Translations under genes and position numbers: made by a program
Assembly (NCBI RefSeq): GCF_015767245.1
Contig: NZ_JADOTV010000001.1
Coordinates: forward strand, 742,896 to 806,895
Direction: 5' to 3'
Length of the DNA stretch: 64,000 nucleotides
DNA from: Aureivirga sp. CE67
GTDB lineage: Bacteria > Bacteroidota > Bacteroidia > Flavobacteriales > Flavobacteriaceae
Shown here: in pieces, positions 1,509 through 30,346 of the stretch
How the letters are laid out: every line of letters starts with the position of its first letter
Numbering within the stretch: the stretch's first letter is position 1
Notes under the pieces: model-generated
Seen by the model: only the letters and a program-made list of their open reading frames with translations
What the model was told of the DNA's origin: nothing
Databases searched by the model: none

Positions 1509-3443
1509 ATGAAAAAACACTTATTAATTATATTTTTTATTCTACTTTCAATGAAAGGATTTTCTCAATTTACAGGAGGAAACGATTTAAATAGTAGAAA
1601 TGTTAAAGATAATGTACGAAAGGGAGAGCTTACGGTAGATTATAGCGGTAAAACTACTTTTAAGGATTATAAAATAATTTCTTATGCAAATGATACTACT
1701 TATATCGATACTACGCTTACCATTCAAAAAGAATATAAATTCAATCCAAGAAGAAAAGATAATTTCGAATTACTGCCATTTAACAATGTTGGACAAACAT
1801 ATACAAAGCTAGGTTATGATTTTCGTGATGAAGGATTATTTCCACAAATGGGAGCTACAGCAAAAACTTATGAATATTTCAATATAAAAGATATCCATTA
1901 TTATTACGTTCCTACTCCTACTTCTGAATTGTTTTATAAATCAACTTTTACACAAGGGCAAGTACTAAATGCTTTTGTGACGATGAATACTTCAAGACAG
2001 TTCAATTTTTCGGTACAATATAACGGGCTGCGTTCTTTAGGAAAATATAGACACCAGTTAAGTAGTCATGGAAATTTCATTGCTACTTTTAATTATCATA
2101 CTAAAAACAAAAAATATTACATTCGAGGACATTATACTTCTCAAGATTTTAGTAATGATGAAAATGGAGGTTTGACTGCAGAGTCATTAGCGAATTTCAA
2201 ATCTGGAGATTCGGAGTTTAACAACAGAGAGCGTTTGGATGTAAATTATACAGATGCAAATAGTTTTTATATTGGAAAAAGATATTATTTCGATCAAAAA
2301 TATAATTTCTTAAGAGTCAAAGATTCTGTTCCAAATCAAAATCAAATTAGTATCGGACATAGATTTGCTTATGAATCTAAACACTATGATTTCTCGCAAG
2401 AAAAAGCAAATGAAATTTATGGCGAATCTTTTAAAACTACTGTTTATAATAGACTTTCAAACAAAACATTTTTTAATCAAGCTTATTTAGATTTTGACTC
2501 TCCATATCTTTTAGGGGAATTAAAAGGAAAGATTGAATATTACACTTATAAACATCAATATGAAAGTCTTGTTTTTATTGATGATCAAAGAATTCCTTCA
2601 CAAATTGACGGAAATTCTGTTTCTGCTGGAGCCGAATGGCATGCAAAAATCAAAAAATTTAATTTGAATGCTGATGTTACTCAAATTGTTTCTGGTGATT
2701 TAACAGGGCATCGATATTATGCAGATGCAAGTATTGGAGAAAAAGACAAATTCTTTTTCAAAGTTGGAGTTTCAGAAACATCAAAATCACCTAATTTCAA
2801 TTTTATTTTAAATCAAAGTCCATATAAATCTTATAATTGGTACAATGATTTTAAAAATGAAATCTACAGAAATGCAAATGCTACTTTAGATACAAAATGG
2901 ATCGATATTTCTGCAGATTATACTTCTATTGATAATTATGCATATTTCAATAGTGCAGAACAAACACAGGCAGCTCAACATTCAGGAACTGTAAATTATC
3001 TAAAACTAAAAGCCGAAAATACTTTTAAACTTGGGAAATTTGCATTGACAAATACTTTGATGTATCAAAAAGTTATCGATGGAGAATCTGTTTTCAGAGC
3101 ACCTGAGTTCACAACAAGAAACTCATTATATTTTACAGATCATCTATTCAAAGGAGATCCTTTATTGTTAAAAACTGGGGTTACTTTTAAATATTTTACA
3201 GAATATTATGCTAATGCTTACAATCCTGTTTTAAATGAATTTTCTATTCAAAATTCGGACAAAATCGGAAATTTCCCAATTTTTGATTTATTCGTAAGTG
3301 GACAAATTAGAAGAACTAGAATTTACTTCATTTTAGAAAATTTCACTGCAAGTTTTACAGGAAGAGATTACTTCAATGCTCCAAACTACCCATATAGAGA
3401 TTTAAGCTTTAGATTTGGATTAGTGTGGAATTTCTTTATCTAA
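1509..3443 (+). CDS. Putative porin (Porin_10-like outer-membrane beta-barrel)
   Basis: This 644-residue protein has a signal peptide (MKKHLLIIFFILLSMKGFSQ) with the usual S-Q cleavage end of Bacteroidota exported proteins. The N-terminal part contains the RNVKDNVRKGELTVDYSGK and DTTYIDTTLTIQKEYKFNPR stretches that recur in flavobacterial 'putative porin' proteins. The rest alternates polar and aromatic residues as expected for a transmembrane barrel, and the last residues (FRFGLVWNFFI) end in the terminal aromatic typical of outer-membrane proteins. Substrate is unknown. It stands alone between two terminators. The family assignment is from recollection of the motif and was not searched. Confidence 0.75.
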   Translation: MKKHLLIIFFILLSMKGFSQFTGGNDLNSRNVKDNVRKGELTVDYSGKTTFKDYKIISYANDTTYIDTTLTIQKEYKFNPRRKDNFELLPFNNVGQTYTKLGYDFRDEGLFPQMGATAKTYEYFNIKDIHYYYVPTPTSELFYKSTFTQGQVLNAFVTMNTSRQFNFSVQYNGLRSLGKYRHQLSSHGNFIATFNYHTKNKKYYIRGHYTSQDFSNDENGGLTAESLANFKSGDSEFNNRERLDVNYTDANSFYIGKRYYFDQKYNFLRVKDSVPNQNQISIGHRFAYESKHYDFSQEKANEIYGESFKTTVYNRLSNKTFFNQAYLDFDSPYLLGELKGKIEYYTYKHQYESLVFIDDQRIPSQIDGNSVSAGAEWHAKIKKFNLNADVTQIVSGDLTGHRYYADASIGEKDKFFFKVGVSETSKSPNFNFILNQSPYKSYNWYNDFKNEIYRNANATLDTKWIDISADYTSIDNYAYFNSAEQTQAAQHSGTVNYLKLKAENTFKLGKFALTNTLMYQKVIDGESVFRAPEFTTRNSLYFTDHLFKGDPLLLKTGVTFKYFTEYYANAYNPVLNEFSIQNSDKIGNFPIFDLFVSGQIRRTRIYFILENFTASFTGRDYFNAPNYPYRDLSFRFGLVWNFFI

Positions 3444-3494
3444 AATTATAATTCTTCAAAAAAAGGAAAGTTTTACTGAAAATATAAAAAATTA

Positions 3495-3537
3495 AGAATC
3501 ACATAATTTATTCATTATTTATGTGATTCTTTTTTTT
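3495..3537 (+). terminator. Intrinsic terminator after the porin gene
   Basis: A 10-bp stem (AGAATCACAT / ATGTGATTCT), with a 16-nt loop, is followed by seven T. Confidence 0.75.
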
Positions 3538-3774
3538 ATTACAAAATCTTTAAAATGTTAATTTTTTATTAATTATTCAATATTAAACTATTTTATTTAT
3601 AAATAATAATTATTAAAAGTTAAAAACAAACACCTAATATAACCAACTGAAAAACAATCCCTCAAAATCTTTTGTATCAAATAAATTTCATCAAAATTTA
3701 ATTCCATTTATTATTTCATCTGTTTTTAATTTTTATGGAAAAACAAATTATTTGAAAAACCTTTACTATCTTCA

Positions 3775-3906
3775 CGACGCAAGTAGATTTTCTTGTAAAA
3801 AAATTAATACTTAAAACTTATTTTATGATTTTTTTTTACTTAAACGGGGAAAGTTAATTGCACATTGAAAAAGAGTATGGAGGTTGTTTGTCAACCTCTT
3901 TTTTTT
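3775..3906 (+). ncRNA. Candidate small RNA ending at an orphan terminator
   Basis: No ORF exists between the porin terminator (3495-3537) and a second strong terminator at 3880-3906. A TTTG at 3751 and a partial -7 match TATCTTCA at 3767-3774 could start a transcript of about 130 nt, but the spacing is short and the match imperfect. I do not recognise it as 6S, tmRNA, SRP RNA or RNase P. The 5' end is a guess; the terminator is the firm part. Confidence 0.25.
3880..3906 (+). terminator. Orphan intrinsic terminator upstream of ruvB
   Basis: Stem GAGGTTG / CAACCTC with a 5-nt loop, then a run of eight T. There is no gene directly upstream, so it must end either a small RNA or residual readthrough. 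Confidence 0.7.
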
Positions 3907-10504: not shown

Positions 10505-10536
10505 TGTGGACACGAGTTACAAACTCGCGCCAGCAA
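10505..10536. repeat. REP-like 32-bp palindromic repeat, copy 1
   Basis: This 32-bp sequence is identical to 24335-24366. Its core is the palindrome CGAGTT-ACA-AACTCG (10513-10527) followed by CGCCAGCAA. It sits in the cydA-cydB gap just before the true cydB start. An upstream AACACATTTC / GAAGTGTGTT inverted pair may be part of the same element. It resembles Bacteroidota REP sequences mobilised by RAYT transposases. No such transposase is in the window. Confidence 0.75.
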
Positions 10537-14455: not shown

Positions 14456-17400
14456 ATGAAACAAAAATTACATTATCTATTATTTTTTTTCTTTCTAATA
14501 TCTGTAAATTTAAAAGGATATTCTACAGAAAAAAATAATGTCAAAACAACTTCATTTTATACTGTAAATAGTGAAACCACAATTCATTATAATGGATTTC
14601 CTTCAGGTACTGGATCCATAACAAATGGTTGGACTAAAAGCTCAAAAGTATATAATGCAGATCCTGGATCTATAGGACAAGGAATTAGATTAGGTAAAAG
14701 TAGTACTACTGGATATATAATCTCTCCAACTCTTGATTGTTCTGCAAATGGTGGAAATTTTACAGTTAGGTTTGATGCTTTAAGATGGAGTAGCTCTGAA
14801 AATAGAATTATTATATCTCATGCTGCCGATGGAAGTAATTTTGATGACTCTATAACACAAGATTTAAATAGTATCTCTTGGGAAACTTTATCATTTGATT
14901 TCACAAATGGTACAGCAAATTCAAAAATTAAAATTGAAACTTTTAGTAGCTCTAAGGAACGTGCAAAAATTGATGAATTCTATGTAATTCAATCTGACCC
15001 AAATGCTCCAAACCTAACAATAAATGAAGATTTAATTGACTTTACATATTTTTTAGGGAATGGACCATCTGCTGAACAATCTTTTACTTTAACAGGTGCT
15101 AATATCACATCTGAAAATGTAAGTATCAGTTTAGAAAATTCTTCTGCTTTTGAAATTTCGACTACTTCAAATGGAACATTTTCTAATTCATTATCTATTG
15201 AGGAAAACATAATTAATGGTCAAACGATTACTATTTATGTAAGACTGAAAAGTAGTTTAACAGCAAACTCATTTAATGAAACATTAACAATAAACTATGA
15301 AGGAGGAAATAGTAAAACTATTACTTTAAATGGGGATGTAGAAGCTCCAAGTATTTCAGTTGATAATGATTATATCTCTGGTTATGATTTTGAATATACT
15401 TTTGGAAAAGGACCTTCAGAAGGGAAATATTTTGAAATAGATAATTTTAATATCTCAGAAAACATTACAGTAACAGGGTCAAATAGTTTTGAAGTTTCTC
15501 TTGATGGAACATCTTACTCTACTTCTGTTGAAATTTTAGCTAGTTCTGTAAATTCATCTACTACTGTAGATATATATGCTCGTCTAAAAGCTGGAATTGC
15601 TGTCGGTGATTATGATGAAAACCTTTCAATTAATTCCTCTGAACTTACCGAAAGTTTTGTGAATTTAAATGGAACTGTAAATACTCCAAGTATCAATTTA
15701 AATAAATATACTTTAGATGAATTTTCATATACTATCCAGCAAGGCCCTTCAGGTTCAAAATACTTTGAAATCAATAATTTTGATGTAAATGAAGATATTA
15801 TTGTTACTGCTCCTGCTAACTTTGAAGTTTCTTTAGGAACTACAAATTTTACTGATCAAATTACGGTTGTATTAGCTGATGTTGTAAATGGTAAAGAAAG
15901 AGTTTATATTCGTCTAAAAGAAGGATTAACACAAGGAAACTATTCAGGAAATGTAATTTTAAACTCTTCAGAATTGGCAAATGTTTCGGTTAGTGTTACT
16001 GGAGTTGTAAATGCTCCTAGTATTTCTATAGATTCATCTAATCTTGATGCTTTATCATATGAAATTAATAATGGCCCTTCTGATTCAGAATATTTTGAAA
16101 TCGAAAACATCAGTATTAATACAGATTTAACTGTTACTGCACCTACTAATTATGAAATTTCTTTTGATTCAAATACTAATTATACTAACATATTAATAAT
16201 AGATACTTCTGAATCTTACAAAAAAGTTTATGTTAGATTAAAAGCTGGATTAGAAACTGGAAGTTATAATGAGACAATCTCTGTAAACTCATCAGAAATT
16301 TCAGAAGAAACGATTTCTTTATTAGGTTCTGTTAATTGTCCTGCTATTTCTACACCAAGTTCATTAAATACATCTGCTGTTGCTTCAAATAGTTTTACAG
16401 CAAACTGGGATTCTGTGAATGGGGCTGATGATTTCTCTTTAACAGTTACAAAAATAATTTCAGAAAATACAATTCTTGAAGAAGGGTTCCCTAATGGAGT
16501 TTCTCCATTTCCAGGTAACTGGTCAAAAAATTCTAGAATTTACACTACTACAAGTGGAAGTTCAGGTAAAGCTATTAGACTTGGGTCTGGTAGCGGATCT
16601 GGAATTATCACTTCACCAACAATTGATTGTTCTACAAACGGTGGTGTTTTCAAGGTAATTTTTGATGCGAAAGCATATGATGGAGATGAATTAAATATGG
16701 GTATTGCTCATGCAGCAGATGGAAGCAACTTTTCGGATGCAAAAATTATAGATGTTAATCTATCTTGGAATACAATTGAAGTTACTTTTACAGGAGGAAC
16801 AGTGAATAGTAAAATTCAATTTGAAAGTCATCAAAGTGGAGGAAAAAGATTTTATTTAGATGAAATCAAAATTATCCAAGAAGAATCTGAAACAATTCAT
16901 AATGACTTAAATATTGGGAACGTTACAACATATGAAGTAACAGGTTTAGATGCTGAAACTACTTACCAATATTATGTAAAAGCAAATACTTCATGTGGAG
17001 GAGGAACTACTTCTGAAGCTTCAAGTACAGTTACAGTTACTACTTTAGTGGATCCAACTTTTATTTGGACGACATCTGGAGATAATAAATGGAACAATGG
17101 AGCAAACTGGAATAAAGGAACAGTTCCTACAGAAAATGATGATGTTAAAATTCCTTTAGCAACTCTAATTGATCCAGTAATAGAAAACTCTGAATCATTC
17201 TCTTGTAATAATATTGAAATTGAAGATGGAATGAAAATTATTTTAAATTCGGATGCTTCTAATAGTGCTTCATTAATCATTAAAGGAAACATTACTGGAA
17301 CTGGAAAAATCAAATATGAAAGACATATCAGCGCTACAGGATGGCATTATATTTCTTCACCTATTTCGGATTTAAATATTCTTGATTTAGTTACAAGTTC

Positions 17401-18598
17401 GACACCTATTTTAAATAAAGCTGTTGGATCAGATACTAAATATGCTTTTGGTCCTTATAATAATAATGCAGCTTCTTATAATCAGAAATGGGAATACTTT
17501 ACAGCAGATGGAATTTCAGGTACTGAAATCATGGAAGCAGCAAAAGGTTATCAAATGAAATTAACTGCTGATGATAAAATTACTTTTGAAGGAAAACCAA
17601 TGTCATCTGCTTCAATTAATGTAAATACAGGAAATTTAAACAACTGGAATTTCTTAGGAAATCCTTTTACTTCTGCTATTTCTGTTTCTACTTTCTTGTC
17701 TGAAAATGATTCAAAATTCTTTGATGGATTTAAAGCTTTATATCTATGGAATGGAGCTAATGGAGAATATGATATTGTAAACTTAGCTTCTAGTCAATCT
17801 ACAATTGCTATCGGACAAGGATTTTTTATCAAAGTTTCTTCAACTAGTCCAGAAGTAATCAACTTTACAAATACTTTAAAAGTTCATGCAAATGACAACT
17901 TCTTAAGAACTTCGAATCAAGAAGAAATAACTCTAAAACTGATTCAAGATTCTAAAGAAAAAACAACAATTGTAAAATTTATCGAAGAAACAACAAATGG
18001 TTTTGATGATGGTTATGATGCTTTAACTTTTGAAGGATTAAATACAGAGTTTGGTATATATACTATGCTTCCTGAAGAAGGAAACACAGATACTTTAGGG
18101 CTACAGTGTTTACCTCCAAATGATTCTGAAACTATTGCAATTCCTGTAGGAATTATAGCAGAAACAAATACTACTTTCTCTATCAAATTAGATGCTGAAA
18201 ATTTTGAATCTGGTAAATATATTTACCTTGAAGATACTTCATTAAATAAATTTGAATTGATGGAAGAGAATACAGAATACATTGTAATTCTTAACTCAGA
18301 AATCGAAAAAACAGAAAGATTTAAATTACATATTATGAATTCTACTTTAAATGTAGAAGATAATATCTTAAATAATATTTCTGTATATTTCGTTGATAAT
18401 TCATTACAAGTTTCAGGAAATATAACTGAAAAAATGAATATTAATATTTATAACACAATCGGTCAAAAAATCACTGGAAAAACAATCCAAACTGAAAGTA
18501 GAATTGATTTACCTTCAAACACATCTGAAGGAATCTACATTATTCAATTAGAAGGAGAAAAATCTAGTAAAACAATCAAATTATTTTTAAACAAATAA
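14456..18598 (+). CDS. Large T9SS-secreted surface protein with repeated Ig-like modules
   Basis: A 1380-residue exported protein. After a signal peptide come a MAM-like/jelly-roll segment (about 45-180, Y-x-G-F-P start and L-D-x-F/I-x-V/I end), four roughly 95-residue Ig-like repeats (about 185-620) of the NGPSAEQSFTLTG / IYVRLKAG type common in Bacteroidota, an FN3-like module interrupted by a second copy of the N-terminal jelly-roll type (about 630-860), and a WTTSGDNKWNNGANW segment near 865. The C-terminus (about 1305-1380, ISVYFVDNSLQVSG to GIYIIQLEGEKSSKTIKLF) is a type A T9SS sorting domain. It is therefore probably a cell-surface adhesin. The 58-residue peptide gene begins 2 nt after its stop, suggesting translational coupling. 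No enzymatic motif seen. Confidence 0.85.
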   Translation: MKQKLHYLLFFFFLISVNLKGYSTEKNNVKTTSFYTVNSETTIHYNGFPSGTGSITNGWTKSSKVYNADPGSIGQGIRLGKSSTTGYIISPTLDCSANGGNFTVRFDALRWSSSENRIIISHAADGSNFDDSITQDLNSISWETLSFDFTNGTANSKIKIETFSSSKERAKIDEFYVIQSDPNAPNLTINEDLIDFTYFLGNGPSAEQSFTLTGANITSENVSISLENSSAFEISTTSNGTFSNSLSIEENIINGQTITIYVRLKSSLTANSFNETLTINYEGGNSKTITLNGDVEAPSISVDNDYISGYDFEYTFGKGPSEGKYFEIDNFNISENITVTGSNSFEVSLDGTSYSTSVEILASSVNSSTTVDIYARLKAGIAVGDYDENLSINSSELTESFVNLNGTVNTPSINLNKYTLDEFSYTIQQGPSGSKYFEINNFDVNEDIIVTAPANFEVSLGTTNFTDQITVVLADVVNGKERVYIRLKEGLTQGNYSGNVILNSSELANVSVSVTGVVNAPSISIDSSNLDALSYEINNGPSDSEYFEIENISINTDLTVTAPTNYEISFDSNTNYTNILIIDTSESYKKVYVRLKAGLETGSYNETISVNSSEISEETISLLGSVNCPAISTPSSLNTSAVASNSFTANWDSVNGADDFSLTVTKIISENTILEEGFPNGVSPFPGNWSKNSRIYTTTSGSSGKAIRLGSGSGSGIITSPTIDCSTNGGVFKVIFDAKAYDGDELNMGIAHAADGSNFSDAKIIDVNLSWNTIEVTFTGGTVNSKIQFESHQSGGKRFYLDEIKIIQEESETIHNDLNIGNVTTYEVTGLDAETTYQYYVKANTSCGGGTTSEASSTVTVTTLVDPTFIWTTSGDNKWNNGANWNKGTVPTENDDVKIPLATLIDPVIENSESFSCNNIEIEDGMKIILNSDASNSASLIIKGNITGTGKIKYERHISATGWHYISSPISDLNILDLVTSSTPILNKAVGSDTKYAFGPYNNNAASYNQKWEYFTADGISGTEIMEAAKGYQMKLTADDKITFEGKPMSSASINVNTGNLNNWNFLGNPFTSAISVSTFLSENDSKFFDGFKALYLWNGANGEYDIVNLASSQSTIAIGQGFFIKVSSTSPEVINFTNTLKVHANDNFLRTSNQEEITLKLIQDSKEKTTIVKFIEETTNGFDDGYDALTFEGLNTEFGIYTMLPEEGNTDTLGLQCLPPNDSETIAIPVGIIAETNTTFSIKLDAENFESGKYIYLEDTSLNKFELMEENTEYIVILNSEIEKTERFKLHIMNSTLNVEDNILNNISVYFVDNSLQVSGNITEKMNINIYNTIGQKITGKTIQTESRIDLPSNTSEGIYIIQLEGEKSSKTIKLFLNK

Positions 18599-18600
18599 TA

Positions 18601-18777
18601 ATGTCAAAAAAGAATATAAAATCAACAGAAAACGAAATCTCAAGAAAAGAGGCTTTAAAGAAAATTGGAAATTTTGGAAAATTTGCAGCTCTTACTGCTA
18701 TTGGTGGAGCAATCTTATTAAATCCTAAAAAAGCACAAGCAACTAGTGACCCAGGTGGAGCTGGTGAAGATTTTTAA
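18601..18777 (+). CDS. 58-residue peptide, candidate precursor of a modified peptide
   Basis: This short gene starts 2 nt after the T9SS gene stop. The product has a polar N-terminus, a twin-arginine-like motif SRKEALKKIG (residues 14-23), a hydrophobic stretch FAALTAIGGAILLN, and an AQA signal-cleavage-like end at 45-47. That leaves an 11-residue tail, TSDPGGAGEDF. The layout (leader, cleavage site, short Gly/acidic core) fits a secreted or RiPP-type precursor. The following genes encode an HprK-like kinase with PqqD-like domain and a nucleotidyltransferase, which could act on Thr48, Ser49 or the acidic tail. A small Tat-exported protein of other function is the alternative. Translation is seen directly; function is inferred. 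Confidence 0.7.
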   Translation: MSKKNIKSTENEISRKEALKKIGNFGKFAALTAIGGAILLNPKKAQATSDPGGAGEDF

Positions 18778-18795
18778 AATAAATTTTTAATTTGA

Positions 18796-18829
18796 AAAAA
18801 TCCTCTAAATTAATTTTTAGAGGATTTTT
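18796..18829 (+). terminator. Strong intrinsic terminator between peptide and kinase genes
   Basis: A 14-bp perfect stem (AAAAATCCTCTAAA / TTTAGAGGATTTTT) with a 6-nt loop, whose 3' arm ends in a T run. It would end most transcripts after the peptide gene and lower expression of the kinase and nucleotidyltransferase relative to the peptide. Confidence 0.75.
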
Positions 18830-18844
18830 ACTATTTTGCCCTCA

Positions 18845-19993
18845 ATGAAAACTACTCCAAAGAATACAGAATTAATCTTCACAGAAATTGATAATCAAAT
18901 TTTAGTTTGGTTTCAAAACTCGAATCGTTATGTCATTTTAGAAAAAAATGTTTTTAAAGTAATTCATAAAATTAAAAAGCAAATTTCAAAAGAAGCTATT
19001 ATTTTATGGATTTCTGAGACTTTTACTGTTGAAAAATTGGATGCTAAAGAAATATTAAAACATTGTACTGATTTACTTCAAGAGATTGAAAGGAAAGAAG
19101 CTTCTGATATTGAAAAAAAAGAAATAATTCCTTCTTTAGAAAGTCAAACATTCTACAGTGAAAAACAGTATAAGATCAATGATAATTTCTTTAAAATTCA
19201 ATATGATTCAGAAAAATCTGAAAATCTGATTCACTCAAAATTAGAACATTTAAATACTGAAAAAAATAAGAAAATCGATTACCATCATTTTCAAATCATT
19301 CAACACCAGAATCGAGTTTATTTATTTGAAAACAAACATTTAATTGACTCATGGAAAAATGGCGATTATCATTATTTTCACGGGAAACTCTCGATGCTAA
19401 TTATCAATCAAATTCATCATAAAAAAGAATCTGATTGGTTAGGTATTTTTCATGCTTCTGCAATTTCTGATGGTGAAAATTCTATGCTATTCATGGGAGA
19501 TTCAGGAAATGGAAAAAGTACACTTTCTGCACTTCTAATGACAGAAAAACTTTATTCGTTTGCAGATGATTTTGTTCCAATTCTTAGAGAAAATCTTCAC
19601 GTTTATAATTTTCCTGTAGGAATTTCTATCAAAGAAAAAAGCATTCCTGTTTTAGAAAACTTCTTTCCAAAATTAGCTACTAAAAAAGCATTTTATATCA
19701 ATTCTAAAAAAACGGTTCGTTATCAAGAGCCTTCTATTTTAACTTCAAAAAATTATCCTTGCAAAGCTTTTGTTTTTGTAAAATATGATGCTAATATCGA
19801 AGAGAATACTTTGGAAGAAATGTCTAAAATTGAAGCTTTTCAAAAAATAGTTCCAGAATCTTGGTTGTATGATTCTGAAGAAAATGCTGAAGTATTTCTA
19901 GATTTTTTTAAAAACACACCTTGTTATAATTTAGTATATTCGGATAATTCTAAAATGATTTCTATCGTAAAAAATTTGTTTCAAAATGCGTAA
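18845..19993 (+). CDS. PqqD-like/HprK-like P-loop kinase
   Basis: I choose the ATG at 18845 (MKTTPKNTELIF) over an upstream in-frame TTG at 18836; the protein is 382 residues. The N-terminal 85 residues have the shape of a PqqD-type peptide-binding domain (short beta strands, RYVILEKNVFKVIHKI, then helices to LLQEIERKE). The C-terminal half is an HprK-like nucleotide-binding domain: His203 in FHASAI, P-loop GDSGNGKST at 218-226, and FADDF with Asp241-Asp242. PqqD domains recognise RiPP leader peptides, and HprK-like enzymes phosphorylate serines, for example on lasso peptide tails. The gene follows the 58-residue peptide gene and overlaps the nucleotidyltransferase gene by 8 nt. Substrate is inferred to be the peptide. 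Confidence 0.75.
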   Translation: MKTTPKNTELIFTEIDNQILVWFQNSNRYVILEKNVFKVIHKIKKQISKEAIILWISETFTVEKLDAKEILKHCTDLLQEIERKEASDIEKKEIIPSLESQTFYSEKQYKINDNFFKIQYDSEKSENLIHSKLEHLNTEKNKKIDYHHFQIIQHQNRVYLFENKHLIDSWKNGDYHYFHGKLSMLIINQIHHKKESDWLGIFHASAISDGENSMLFMGDSGNGKSTLSALLMTEKLYSFADDFVPILRENLHVYNFPVGISIKEKSIPVLENFFPKLATKKAFYINSKKTVRYQEPSILTSKNYPCKAFVFVKYDANIEENTLEEMSKIEAFQKIVPESWLYDSEENAEVFLDFFKNTPCYNLVYSDNSKMISIVKNLFQNA

Positions 19994-21098
19994 TTACGAA
20001 GCTTTAAAATTTATCAGTCTTTGTTTAAGTTTAAAATTTGAAAAGAAAAATATTTCAAGAGTTAAAGAGAAATTACAATCTCTTGAATGGGAAAAGATTA
20101 TTTGTATTAGTGACGCTCATTATGTTTTTCCGAATTTATATATTCAACTTAAAAATACGAATTTATTAGATCTTGTTCCTGATGATTTGGTTGCATATAT
20201 GGAGTTTTTGACCGAAAAAAACAGAGAAAGAAATCAGACTATTTTAGCTCAAATTGAACGAATCACGAAAACTTTAAACCAAGAAAATATTATTCCGATT
20301 TTCACCAAAGGAACTTCTTATTTAGTAGATAATTTATATGAAGATTTAGGCGAAAGAATTATTGGAGACATCGATTTTTTATTACCTGAAAAAGATATTG
20401 AGAAAGCTGCTAAACTTTTATCTGATTTTGGCTATAAAGAACTTTATGATGAAAAAACGGATTTAAGCTTTCATCCTGAAGATCATCGTCATTTGCCTAG
20501 ATTGATTCATAATGATGAGATTGCAGCAATAGAAATTCATCGAGAAATGTTGGTAGAAAATCATGCGAAGAATTTTAATTATGAAACTATAAAAGATTCG
20601 CTAAAAGAAATAAACTTTAGAGGAAATAAACTTTTTGTTCTTTCTACAGAAAATCAATTAATTTTAAATGGATGCTCTTTACAATTAAACGATTCTGGTT
20701 ATTCTTCTGGAAGGATTATTCTCAGAAATTTATATGATGCTTTACTTCTTTCAGAAAAAGTAAATTCATTAGAAACTATAGAAAAACATCCGAAATTATT
20801 TAAGTATTTGAATTGTTATTTAGCTTTGACTAAAAATATTTTCTATGATATTTCTATAATTCGTTATAAAAAAAATATAGCATCAAGATTTTATGTTTCA
20901 AGATGCTTATTGTTCTTTAAAAATCGAAAACTGACTTTAGTAAAAAATAATTTAGAAATATTCTTTAAGATTATTCATAATTCTGTTTTACACCTTACTT
21001 GTCCGAAGCTAAGAGCAAAACTAATTCAAAAATTAACCAGTAAAGAATGGCGAAAAAAGAAAGTGATTATGCTGAAAAATTCTAGTACACGAATCTAA
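19986..21098 (+). CDS. NTP_transf_5-like nucleotidyltransferase
   Basis: A 370-residue protein of the uncharacterised nucleotidyltransferase type often found in RiPP loci. Visible features are FTKGTSYLVDNLYED (about 106-120) and the metal-binding G127-D-I-D130 motif in GERIIGDIDFLLPEKD. EIHREM and the C-terminal helical region with HxxLP follow. The start overlaps the kinase stop (ATGCGTAA), a sign of translational coupling and likely joint action. Family members are presumed to transfer a nucleotide or to bind it; no activity is established for this type as far as I know. It ends directly against a convergent lipoprotein gene. Confidence 0.75.
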   Translation: MRNYEALKFISLCLSLKFEKKNISRVKEKLQSLEWEKIICISDAHYVFPNLYIQLKNTNLLDLVPDDLVAYMEFLTEKNRERNQTILAQIERITKTLNQENIIPIFTKGTSYLVDNLYEDLGERIIGDIDFLLPEKDIEKAAKLLSDFGYKELYDEKTDLSFHPEDHRHLPRLIHNDEIAAIEIHREMLVENHAKNFNYETIKDSLKEINFRGNKLFVLSTENQLILNGCSLQLNDSGYSSGRIILRNLYDALLLSEKVNSLETIEKHPKLFKYLNCYLALTKNIFYDISIIRYKKNIASRFYVSRCLLFFKNRKLTLVKNNLEIFFKIIHNSVLHLTCPKLRAKLIQKLTSKEWRKKKVIMLKNSSTRI

Positions 21099-24334: not shown

Positions 24335-24366
24335 TGTGGACACGAGTTACAAACTCGCGCCAGCAA
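24335..24366. repeat. REP-like 32-bp palindromic repeat, copy 2
   Basis: Identical over 32 bp to 10505-10536, same strand. Core palindrome CGAGTT-ACA-AACTCG followed by CGCCAGCAA. Perfect identity of a non-coding 32-mer 14 kb apart indicates a mobile or actively homogenised repeat. Confidence 0.75.
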
Positions 24367-29218: not shown

Positions 29219-30346
29219 TTAAACATAAAAAAGATCACTAGCAATTCCGTCTGCTAGAAATTTTCCTTTTTCCGTGATGAATAGAAAATTATCTTTCAAT
29301 TCTAAAGTTCCTTGTTTCAAAAATGGTTTGATTTCTTTTTCTAAAAATTTTCGCATTTCTAAACCAAAATCATTTTCAATTTTTTCCAAAGAAACTCCAA
29401 AAATTGTTCGCAATCCTGTCATCACATATTCATTATAACAATCTATTTTCGAAAGTTCTTCAATTTCTAATGGAAGCTTTTTTTCTTCAATTTCTTTCAT
29501 ATAAAGCATGTTATTCGCAAGATTCCAAGCTCTATTTTTTCCATCAAAAGAATGTGCTGAAGGCCCAACTCCTAAATATTTTTTCCCTTGCCAATAAGAA
29601 GTATTATGTTTTGAAAAGAAATCTGGTTTTCCAAAATTCGAAATCTCATAATGTACAAAACCATTTTTCTTTGTTTCTTTTACCAAAATCTGAAAATGTT
29701 TGAAAGCCAAATTTTCATCCAAAGGTTTTACTCTTCCTTTTTTGATAAAAGAATCCAATACCGTTTTTTCCTCAACTGTCAAAGCATAACTAGAAATATG
29801 TGGAATATTCAAATCAAAAGCAATTTCAAGATTCTTTCGCCATTTTGCTTCCTCCATATTCGGAACTCCATAAATCAGATCAATCGTGATATTTTCAAAA
29901 CCAACTTTCTGTGCTTCTTCAATACATTTTCTAGCTTCTATAGCAGAATGCGCACGATTCATAAATTGTAAATCTTCCTCAAAAAAAGATTGAATTCCAA
30001 TGCTCAATCGATTGATTGGAGTTTTAGATAAATCCATTAATTTCTCTGTAGACAAATCATCTGGATTTGCTTCTAAAGTAATTTCAGGATTTTCAACTAC
30101 AGAAAAATTCGTATAAATTGTATTTAAAATCTGTTTAATTTCTGCAATAGAAAGCAAAGAAGGCGTTCCTCCACCAAAATAAATGGTTTCGATTGTTTCC
30201 TTTTCTAAAGTCTCTTTTCGTAGCTCAATTTCTGCACAAATTGCATTCACCATTCGCTCCTTATATTTCAAAGAAGTCGAAAAATGAAAATCGCAATAAT
30301 AACAAGCTTGCTTACAAAAAGGGATATGTATATAAATTCCTGCCAA
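29219..30346 (-). CDS. hemW: Radical SAM haem chaperone HemW
   Basis: HemW (formerly HemN-like) is a radical SAM protein that binds haem and is thought to load it into respiratory enzymes. The 375-residue protein starts [19 protein letters not shown] with the CxxxCxxC cluster at Cys11, Cys15 and Cys18 followed by the typical [13 protein letters not shown] and SIGIQSF follow. It lacks the extra N-terminal residues of true coproporphyrinogen oxidase HemN. A repeat (30365-30401) separates it from upstream ruvC. Confidence 0.9.

Follow-up and report, generated by a model that had tools for sequence, protein, structure and literature searches.

A candidate peptide modification system linked to a subclass of type IX secretion cargo in Flavobacteriaceae

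Introduction

What might be the role of a peptide of 58 residues whose gene lies between that of a large secreted protein and those of two putative modifying enzymes? The question is raised by a locus of Aureivirga sp. CE67 (Flavobacteriaceae), contained in a stretch of 64,000 nucleotides (assembly GCF_015767245.1, contig NZ_JADOTV010000001.1, positions 742,896 to 806,895), hereafter the window. Coordinates are those of the window and features are on the + strand unless otherwise stated. An earlier note, made from the sequence alone, had described a cassette of three genes (peptide, kinase with a PqqD-like N-terminus, and nucleotidyltransferase) and proposed an undescribed pathway for the modification of an exported peptide. 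The association of peptide, kinase and nucleotidyltransferase is real and conserved, and with a cargo protein of the type IX secretion system (T9SS) there are four components. We propose that these probably constitute a system of the ribosomally synthesised and post-translationally modified peptide (RiPP) type, in the service of a subclass of T9SS cargo, in which phosphorylation guided by a leader would be followed by a decoration; both the chemistry and the role towards the cargo are deduced from the evidence given below.

Results

Layout of the locus

The coordinates previously given for the three genes all hold. The peptide gene (18601..18777) starts with the ATG at 18601, two nucleotides after the TAA stop codon of the cargo gene (14456..18598). 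Its leader or signal-like region (18601..18741, from peptide alignment A1) contains SRKEALKKIG and ends in AQA, and the predicted core TSDPGGAGEDF (18742..18774) follows this AxA-like site, all as had been described. After a terminator-like hairpin (18796..18829) comes a kinase of 382 residues (18845..19993), for which the ATG at 18845 is a likelier start than the TTG at 18836 used by the listed open reading frame (ORF). The nucleotidyltransferase-like protein of 370 residues (19986..21098) begins 8 nt before the kinase ends, and both the kinase P-loop and the G-D-I-D motif of the nucleotidyltransferase were found where reported.

Conservation of the peptide

Eighty named loci of kinase homologues formed the sample for neighbourhood counts. 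The earlier note had offered conservation of the small ORF beside the enzymes as a test, and 55 of these loci have the peptide gene immediately 5′ of that for the kinase. Among the 25 loci lacking an adjacent peptide, 23 genomes were searchable and 20 carry between 1 and 7 peptide matches elsewhere. The genome of the window itself contains a single match (83.3 bits, profile search at E up to 1). In a class-wide sample the peptide profile matched 3 of 395 genomes, all in the window's own family, but kinase loci accompanied by a peptide were also found in records whose titles give Prolixibacteraceae or Bacteroidia (L128, L150, L169, L175). The window peptide had no match in Pfam or NCBIfam at E up to 1, and 21 peptides searched against the same collections gave scattered weak matches only, the best (E 0.035) being that of one peptide to a formate dehydrogenase TAT family.

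Selection on the peptide frame was examined with 128 of 138 unique peptides, several of which are copies within one genome. Non-synonymous differences (pN) were proportionally fewer than synonymous ones (pS) in 4929 of 4929 pairs, which are not independent of each other, compared with 2283 and 74 of 4929 pairs for the other two frames. The median dN/dS of the peptide frame was 0.14 over 1259 unsaturated pairs. A chance ORF is thus ruled out by recurrence across genomes of the family and by purifying selection.

The consensus leader of 21 precursors reads ITRKEAIKKMGKYAALTAxGTFxILNPKKAQA and a short core comes after it, for example SPPDPGGxPF or SPEAPGDGF. Cores could be parsed for 133 of the 138 unique peptides. 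Serine occupies core position 2 in 132 of them, and from this conservation the corresponding residue here, Ser49 (18745..18747), is the likely phosphate acceptor. Most cores are 10, 11 or 12 residues long (99/133), the lengths reaching 55 at most, and none contains cysteine (0/133). Among the 119 cores of up to 16 residues, PG occurs in 111, an aromatic residue falls within the last three positions in 111, and 115 lack lysine. Variation is small, ASPEAPGDGF recurring in 8 and QSPEAPGTGF in 7 unique peptides.

The description of the leader as Tat-like stands as a resemblance only. Twin arginine was present in 1 of 137 unique peptides that could be parsed for this residue pair (out of 138) and R-K, the pair of the window peptide, in 126, and canonical twin-arginine translocation (Tat) was rejected as the export route. 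A leader derived from a Tat signal is possible. A Bacteroidales metagenome-assembled genome (MAG) encodes a peptide with SRRNALKK (locus L230).

Link to type IX secretion cargo

The earlier note had treated the three genes as the unit. The boundaries have to be redrawn: a T9SS cargo gene adjoins the peptide, and the kinase and nucleotidyltransferase can sit elsewhere in the genome. In the window the cargo is a type A protein of 1380 residues, adhesin-like and with fn3 (TIGR04183, 26.5 bits for the whole protein, cut-off 23). In Pfam it matched fn3 at 29 bits (cut-off 25) and PF18962 at 22.6 bits, below the cut-off of 27. Its sorting tail lies at 18398..18583 (TIGR04183, 30.9 bits), within a C-terminal module common to peptide-linked cargos (17519..18589).

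Tails of this kind recur upstream of the peptide. TIGR04183 was matched at E up to 0.01 by 67 of 69 C-termini, each ORF being counted once and those whose end lay over 450 nt ahead of that of the peptide being excluded. With a tail model that is partly circular, having been made from some of the same loci, a T9SS-like tail was found upstream of 120 of the 126 unique peptides with an ORF in range, the remaining 6 not being tail-like; the other 12 of the 138 had no ORF of at least 100 residues ending 90-520 nt before the peptide end, and include contig edges and longer gaps. In one genome (G319) all six peptides, with the kinase elsewhere, each follow a tail recognised by eye as T9SS-like. Because no other gene accompanies the peptide as constantly as that of the cargo, also for copies far from the kinase, a stand-alone cassette was rejected.

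Cargo profile A8 was built from the C-terminal 360 residues of peptide-linked cargos, 29 in number and all from other genera. The window's own genome encodes 131 T9SS type A tails and one peptide, and A8 places the window's cargo first, at 268.5 bits, followed by proteins at 89.1 and 52.5 bits. A chance cargo neighbour is ruled out by the recurrent tails and by this choice of one among 131. The N-terminal parts of the cargos differ: among eight scanned, lamin-tail matches were found in three, and fn3, ice-binding and Ig-like matches in one each.

Co-occurrence was counted in 397 genomes of the window's family. The kinase search matched 38 genomes, of which 35 were counted as strong. The cut of 1e-15 was set after the scores had been seen, and kinase matches in G002, G141 and G249 and peptide matches in G005, G182, G354 and G371 were dropped as weaker. 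Kinase and peptide were found together in 34 genomes, the kinase only in 1 (near a contig start), the peptide only in 5 and neither in 357. The cargo module (E up to 1e-40) was present in 43 genomes, including 35 of the 39 with the peptide and 34 of the 35 with the kinase. Peptide and module thus gave 35 genomes with both, 4 with the peptide only, 8 with the cargo only and 350 with neither; the corresponding counts for kinase and module were 34, 1, 9 and 353. All three occur in 33 genomes, and seven have the cargo module with neither kinase nor peptide (G066, G096, G121, G161, G330, G334, G352).

A terminator-like hairpin, missed in the earlier note, separates the peptide from the enzymes, here and in 41 of 55 peptide-kinase gaps, as compared with 75 of 1100 dinucleotide shuffles (gaps under 40 nt were excluded, as were peptides whose end lay over 250 nt ahead of the kinase, and L100 was counted twice). 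Given the hairpin after the peptide, cargo and peptide look like one transcript, and the enzymes would be expressed by read-through or from a promoter of their own.

At locus L105 a Phage Tail Collar protein with a signal-like N-terminus (3162-3818; PF07484, 105.9 bits) is placed 99 nt ahead of the peptide-linked cargo, and its blastp cluster is present in 18 of the 80 loci. In another lineage the gene immediately preceding that of the cargo encodes a Peptidase_S74 protein, an endosialidase chaperone (L060, 8753-9727, - strand).

The kinase

The closest named kinase to that of the window is from Aureivirga marina (49% identity). An AlphaFold2 model made from the window kinase and 48 locus sequences had a predicted local distance difference test (pLDDT) score of 92.8. 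The N-terminal 86 residues, modelled on their own (pLDDT 88.4), form three strands followed by three helices. Whether this part adopts a PqqD fold had been posed as a second test, and the region (residues 6-82, 18860..19090) models as a PqqD-like RiPP recognition element (RRE). The top six Foldseek rows were RREs of lasso-peptide B1 proteins solved with their leaders (E 5.9e-3 to 4.5e-2). Structural comparison gave Z 9.0 to 6jx3 (2.7 Å over 77 residues), 8.4-8.5 to TbiB1, 7.7 to the sactipeptide enzyme 5why and 6.7 to PqqD (5sxy), with FusB1 also among the rows. Since an unrelated ribosomal row reached the same Z of 6.7 (54 residues) and no Foldseek row fell under E 0.001, the support for an RRE comes from the mutual agreement of the leading matches. 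Pfam PqqD was matched by 12 of 49 kinases (best 0.0016), the window's own not being among them.

The remainder is predicted to be a serine kinase of the HprK type from its fold, P-loop and His-Lys-Asp-Asp residues. Residues 197-382 (19433..19990) superpose on HprK 1jb1 with Z 11.9 (3.1 Å, 125 residues), and residues 85-382 on PEPCK 1ayl with Z 14.8 (5.2 Å, 287 residues). By fold of the whole kinase PEPCK ranks above HprK, whereas by sequence the order is reversed (TIGR04352, E 4.4e-18; PEPCK_ATP, 0.0016), and HprK chains were best in a profile search of the PDB (E 0.0086). At E up to 1, Hpr_kinase_C was matched by 47 of 49 kinases, a number that does not include the kinase of the window. The profile places the protein in the same family as HprK-related kinase A (TIGR04352), but at 65.4 bits it is far below the 200-bit equivalog cut-off, and differs in its fused RRE. 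His203 (19451..19453), Lys224 within the P-loop GDSGNGKST (19496..19522) and Asp241-Asp242 (19565..19570) are invariant in alignments of 31 and 49 kinases (A2 and A5). Compared by description, they equal in kind and order the His-Lys-Asp-Asp motif called imperative in lasso-peptide kinases (review PMC9266682).

The nucleotidyltransferase

The second enzyme belongs to NTP_transf_5 (PF14907, 117.6 bits, cut-off 31.2). Its G-D-I-D motif (20364..20375) contains Asp128 and Asp130, which are invariant in 29 sequences together with Lys108, Gly109, His169, Glu183, His185 and Asp251. It is encoded directly 3′ of the kinase in 65 of the 80 loci, and 12 of the 14 genomes whose loci have none nearby carry one elsewhere. 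In the family it was found in 32 of the 35 kinase genomes and in 0 of 45 chosen kinase-less genomes, a set made up of the 5 peptide-only and 7 cargo-only genomes and the 33 first-listed negatives and thus not random.

Two divergent kinase loci have a sugar-type NTP_transferase after the kinase (L048, 8586-9476; L051, 1273-2157; both - strand), with a DUF3089 protein before it (both families tested in L048). Proteins of about 190 residues form a cluster found in 15 of 35 contexts and come right after the nucleotidyltransferase in 14 of them (L037, 7772-8329, - strand, and 14 more); the one in L038 has a weak match to an outer-membrane beta-barrel family (PF13505, 21 bits, below cut-off). At six loci (L108, L109, L111, L114, L121, L171) the kinase follows a gene judged by eye to be TrkH-like, and no peptide adjoins the kinase; of the six genomes, four carry 3-5 peptide matches at other places and the other two (L111, L171) lack any.

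Neither a lasso cyclase nor a B2 protease was recognised by eye beside the window's cassette or in the 14 gene families that recur most often within 8 kb at the 80 loci; no model for either was run. An mpl-like gene accompanies the locus in 65 of 80 cases and a TrkH-like gene in 40 of 80 (both named by eye), most of the loci being from Polaribacter and Tenacibaculum. Given this conserved synteny, a mobile cassette is not favoured.

Discussion

Proposed pathway and its precedents

The data fit an exported peptide with phosphorylation as its main modification, followed by a second step. In the pathway we envisage, cargo and peptide would be co-transcribed and a leaky terminator would hold expression of the enzymes lower. 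The predicted RRE would bind the leader, and the HprK-like domain would phosphorylate the near-invariant serine at core position 2. The NTP_transf_5 enzyme would then add to that phosphate a nucleotide or, on the precedent of PsmN, a sugar. The leader would direct export of the modified peptide, with an ordinary signal peptidase cutting after AxA. Lastly, the modified peptide, mostly of 10-12 residues, would act in the envelope on the linked class of cargo, maturation or surface attachment being the likeliest functions. We hold the two-step modification of this peptide to be likely; the action on cargo, the basis of which is linkage and co-occurrence, seems to us evenly poised.

Phosphorylation at core Ser2 and subsequent decoration are proposed by analogy with the linear polyphosphorylated peptides (LPP) and PsmN. 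LPP, by likeness the closest precedent, is described from Bacillota as comprising an HprK-like kinase, a discrete RRE, an SpI-like peptidase, an MsbA-like exporter and a nucleoside triphosphate (NTP) transferase, and its kinase adds several phosphates to Ser3 of a linear core (PMC13381572, May 2026). The same source calls LPP limited to Bacillota and its role unknown. With this publication of linear phosphopeptides whose biosynthesis employs an HprK-like kinase together with an RRE and an NTP transferase, the claim of an undescribed type of pathway falls, while the precursor-like peptide, the RRE and the HprK fold of the original interpretation are retained. The present system resembles LPP in its predicted linear core with a serine near the N-terminus (predicted position 2 here), its HprK-like kinase, its RRE, the absence of any cyclase recognised by eye, a predicted cleavage at a signal-peptidase-like site, and an NTP transferase adjoining the kinase (PF14907 here, its likeness to LppN, the LPP counterpart, being one of annotation). 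It differs in that the RRE is fused to the kinase, the leader does not carry the YxxPxVLxHQxIxFETxxS of LPP, the hosts are Bacteroidota, T9SS cargo is linked, and the recurrent neighbours, inspected by eye with no model run, showed neither an SpI nor an MsbA-like gene.

PsmN is reported to put one or two hexoses on the phosphorylated serine of pseudomycoidin, nucleotidylation followed by the action of a host glycosyltransferase being left open as an alternative (review PMC9266682). The phosphorylated lasso peptides (paeninodin with PadeK; pseudomycoidin with PsmK and PsmN) share with the present system a His-Lys-Asp-Asp kinase and an annotated nucleotidyltransferase acting after it. However, their phosphorylated serine is C-terminal, whereas the candidate here is near the N-terminus of the core, and no cyclase or B2 protein was recognised here by eye.

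For the cargo, in other Bacteroidota T9SS substrates are described as being cut and joined via an aminoacyl group to surface sugars, the linker being seryl, glycyl or alanyl in P. gingivalis, T. forsythia and P. intermedia (PMC11969387). Genes for type B cargo of Flavobacterium johnsoniae are often linked to their own shuttle genes, PorP/SprF (PMC12618676). The present cargo likewise has a linked accessory gene of its own. That gene, however, encodes a short peptide, which is probably modified, and the tail of the cargo is of type A. From aminoacyl attachment and linked shuttle genes, by analogy, the modified peptide would most plausibly act on maturation or attachment of cargo. A more specific candidate, in which a ribosomal peptide of about ten residues replaces the aminoacyl sugar as the cargo linker, strikes us as improbable; as the short cores contain almost no lysine, the N-terminus would then be the main amine.

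Our literature searches left most subscription papers outside their scope. Within it, none linked T9SS with HprK or PqqD, none on T9SS with RiPPs was on the subject by title, names of HprK-like peptide kinases led to PMC13381572 only, and PF14907 to no paper. Type IX secretion was not mentioned among the matches listed for a search combining it with RiPP terms, and phosphorylated RiPPs returned, by title, LPP, an ocean microbiome study and phosphorylated lantibiotics only. In two RRE mining papers a term search found no mention of kinase, HprK or Bacteroid.

Weighing the evidence

Several observations weigh against the proposal that the enzymes modify this peptide and that the product serves the cargo. 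Deletion of LppN is reported to be without effect in a heterologous host (PMC13381572). Three of the 23 searchable genomes with a kinase and no adjacent peptide have no peptide match at all (L111, L117 and L171, all MAGs by title), and two of the 14 without a nearby nucleotidyltransferase have none (L144, L171). At the divergent loci L048 and L051 the enzyme after the kinase is a different nucleotidyltransferase (PF00483, tested for L048 only); both genomes retain a PF14907 enzyme elsewhere, the copy in the L051 genome having one in-frame stop. The peptide occurs without the kinase in 5 of 39 genomes, whose assemblies are 82-92% complete, the cargo module occurs without the peptide in 8 of 43, and two genomes (G045, G157) have 5 cargo matches and one peptide each, so the pairing is not one-to-one. 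Moreover, the Fisher P values for co-occurrence (5.8e-38 to 1.1e-42) overstate independence because the genomes are related, and the peptide (A1) and nucleotidyltransferase (A3) profiles were built from kinase loci, largely in the same genomes, which favours detection there. Inspection by eye of the 14 families that recur most often within 8 kb at the 80 loci brought out neither a dedicated peptidase nor an exporter, no model having been run.

The five genomes with a peptide and no strong kinase match would be expected if the small ORF encoded a membrane peptide or a cargo chaperone and the enzymes modified something else, and the hydrophobic stretch of the peptide might indeed serve as an anchor. 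However, the predicted RRE of the kinase belongs to a class of domains known to bind the leaders of precursors, 34 of the 35 kinase genomes contain the peptide, and serine is fixed in position in 132 of 133 cores; we find this explanation very unlikely. LPP clusters often lie within capsular polysaccharide loci, and a role in biofilms has been speculated on (PMC13381572). The enzymes here are alike in kind to those of LPP, and a phosphopeptide with a comparable, general role in the envelope and no direct action on the cargo can be imagined. This is quite unlikely in our judgement, as 35 of the 39 peptide genomes have the cargo subclass and T9SS-like tails precede even those peptide copies that are far from the kinase.

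We also consider it unlikely, if less so, that the peptide is secreted as a free phosphopeptide or phosphoglycopeptide with a signalling or antimicrobial function, the cargo being its receptor, its carrier or a co-expressed neighbour. Both kinds of relatives, lasso and LPP, have been described as natural products (PMC9266682, PMC13381572), and the up to 7 peptide matches per genome might be variants of a signal. Against this, signals specific to a species or toxins in an arms race would be expected to vary more than these cores do, inspection of the recurrent neighbours by eye showed neither an exporter nor an immunity gene, and the mpl-like and TrkH-like synteny looks like vertical inheritance, though mostly in Polaribacter and Tenacibaculum loci.

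A coupling of LPP-like phosphorylation of a peptide with type IX secretion, which the analogies suggest, would amount to a pathway of peptide modification tied to the T9SS of Bacteroidota and would extend LPP-like chemistry beyond Bacillota. It would name a genetic partner, a definable subclass of surface-secreted proteins, making the purpose of a phosphopeptide directly testable in culturable marine bacteria, and would offer a lead on the finishing or attachment of type A cargo in Flavobacteriaceae. The pairing of peptide and cargo across many marine bacteria suggests an unrecognised step in one of these processes.

Other features of the window

That the cassette contains no radical SAM gene is true of the cassette itself; a HemW-like radical SAM gene, named by eye, lies outside it, about 8 kb off in the window (29219-30346, - strand). 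A repeat with a palindrome (GGACACGAGTTACAAACTCGCGCCAGC) was found at 10505-10536 and 24335-24366 and has 23 sites in the genome at up to 2 mismatches, as compared with 0 for the reversed control. It looks like a repetitive extragenic palindromic (REP)-type element.

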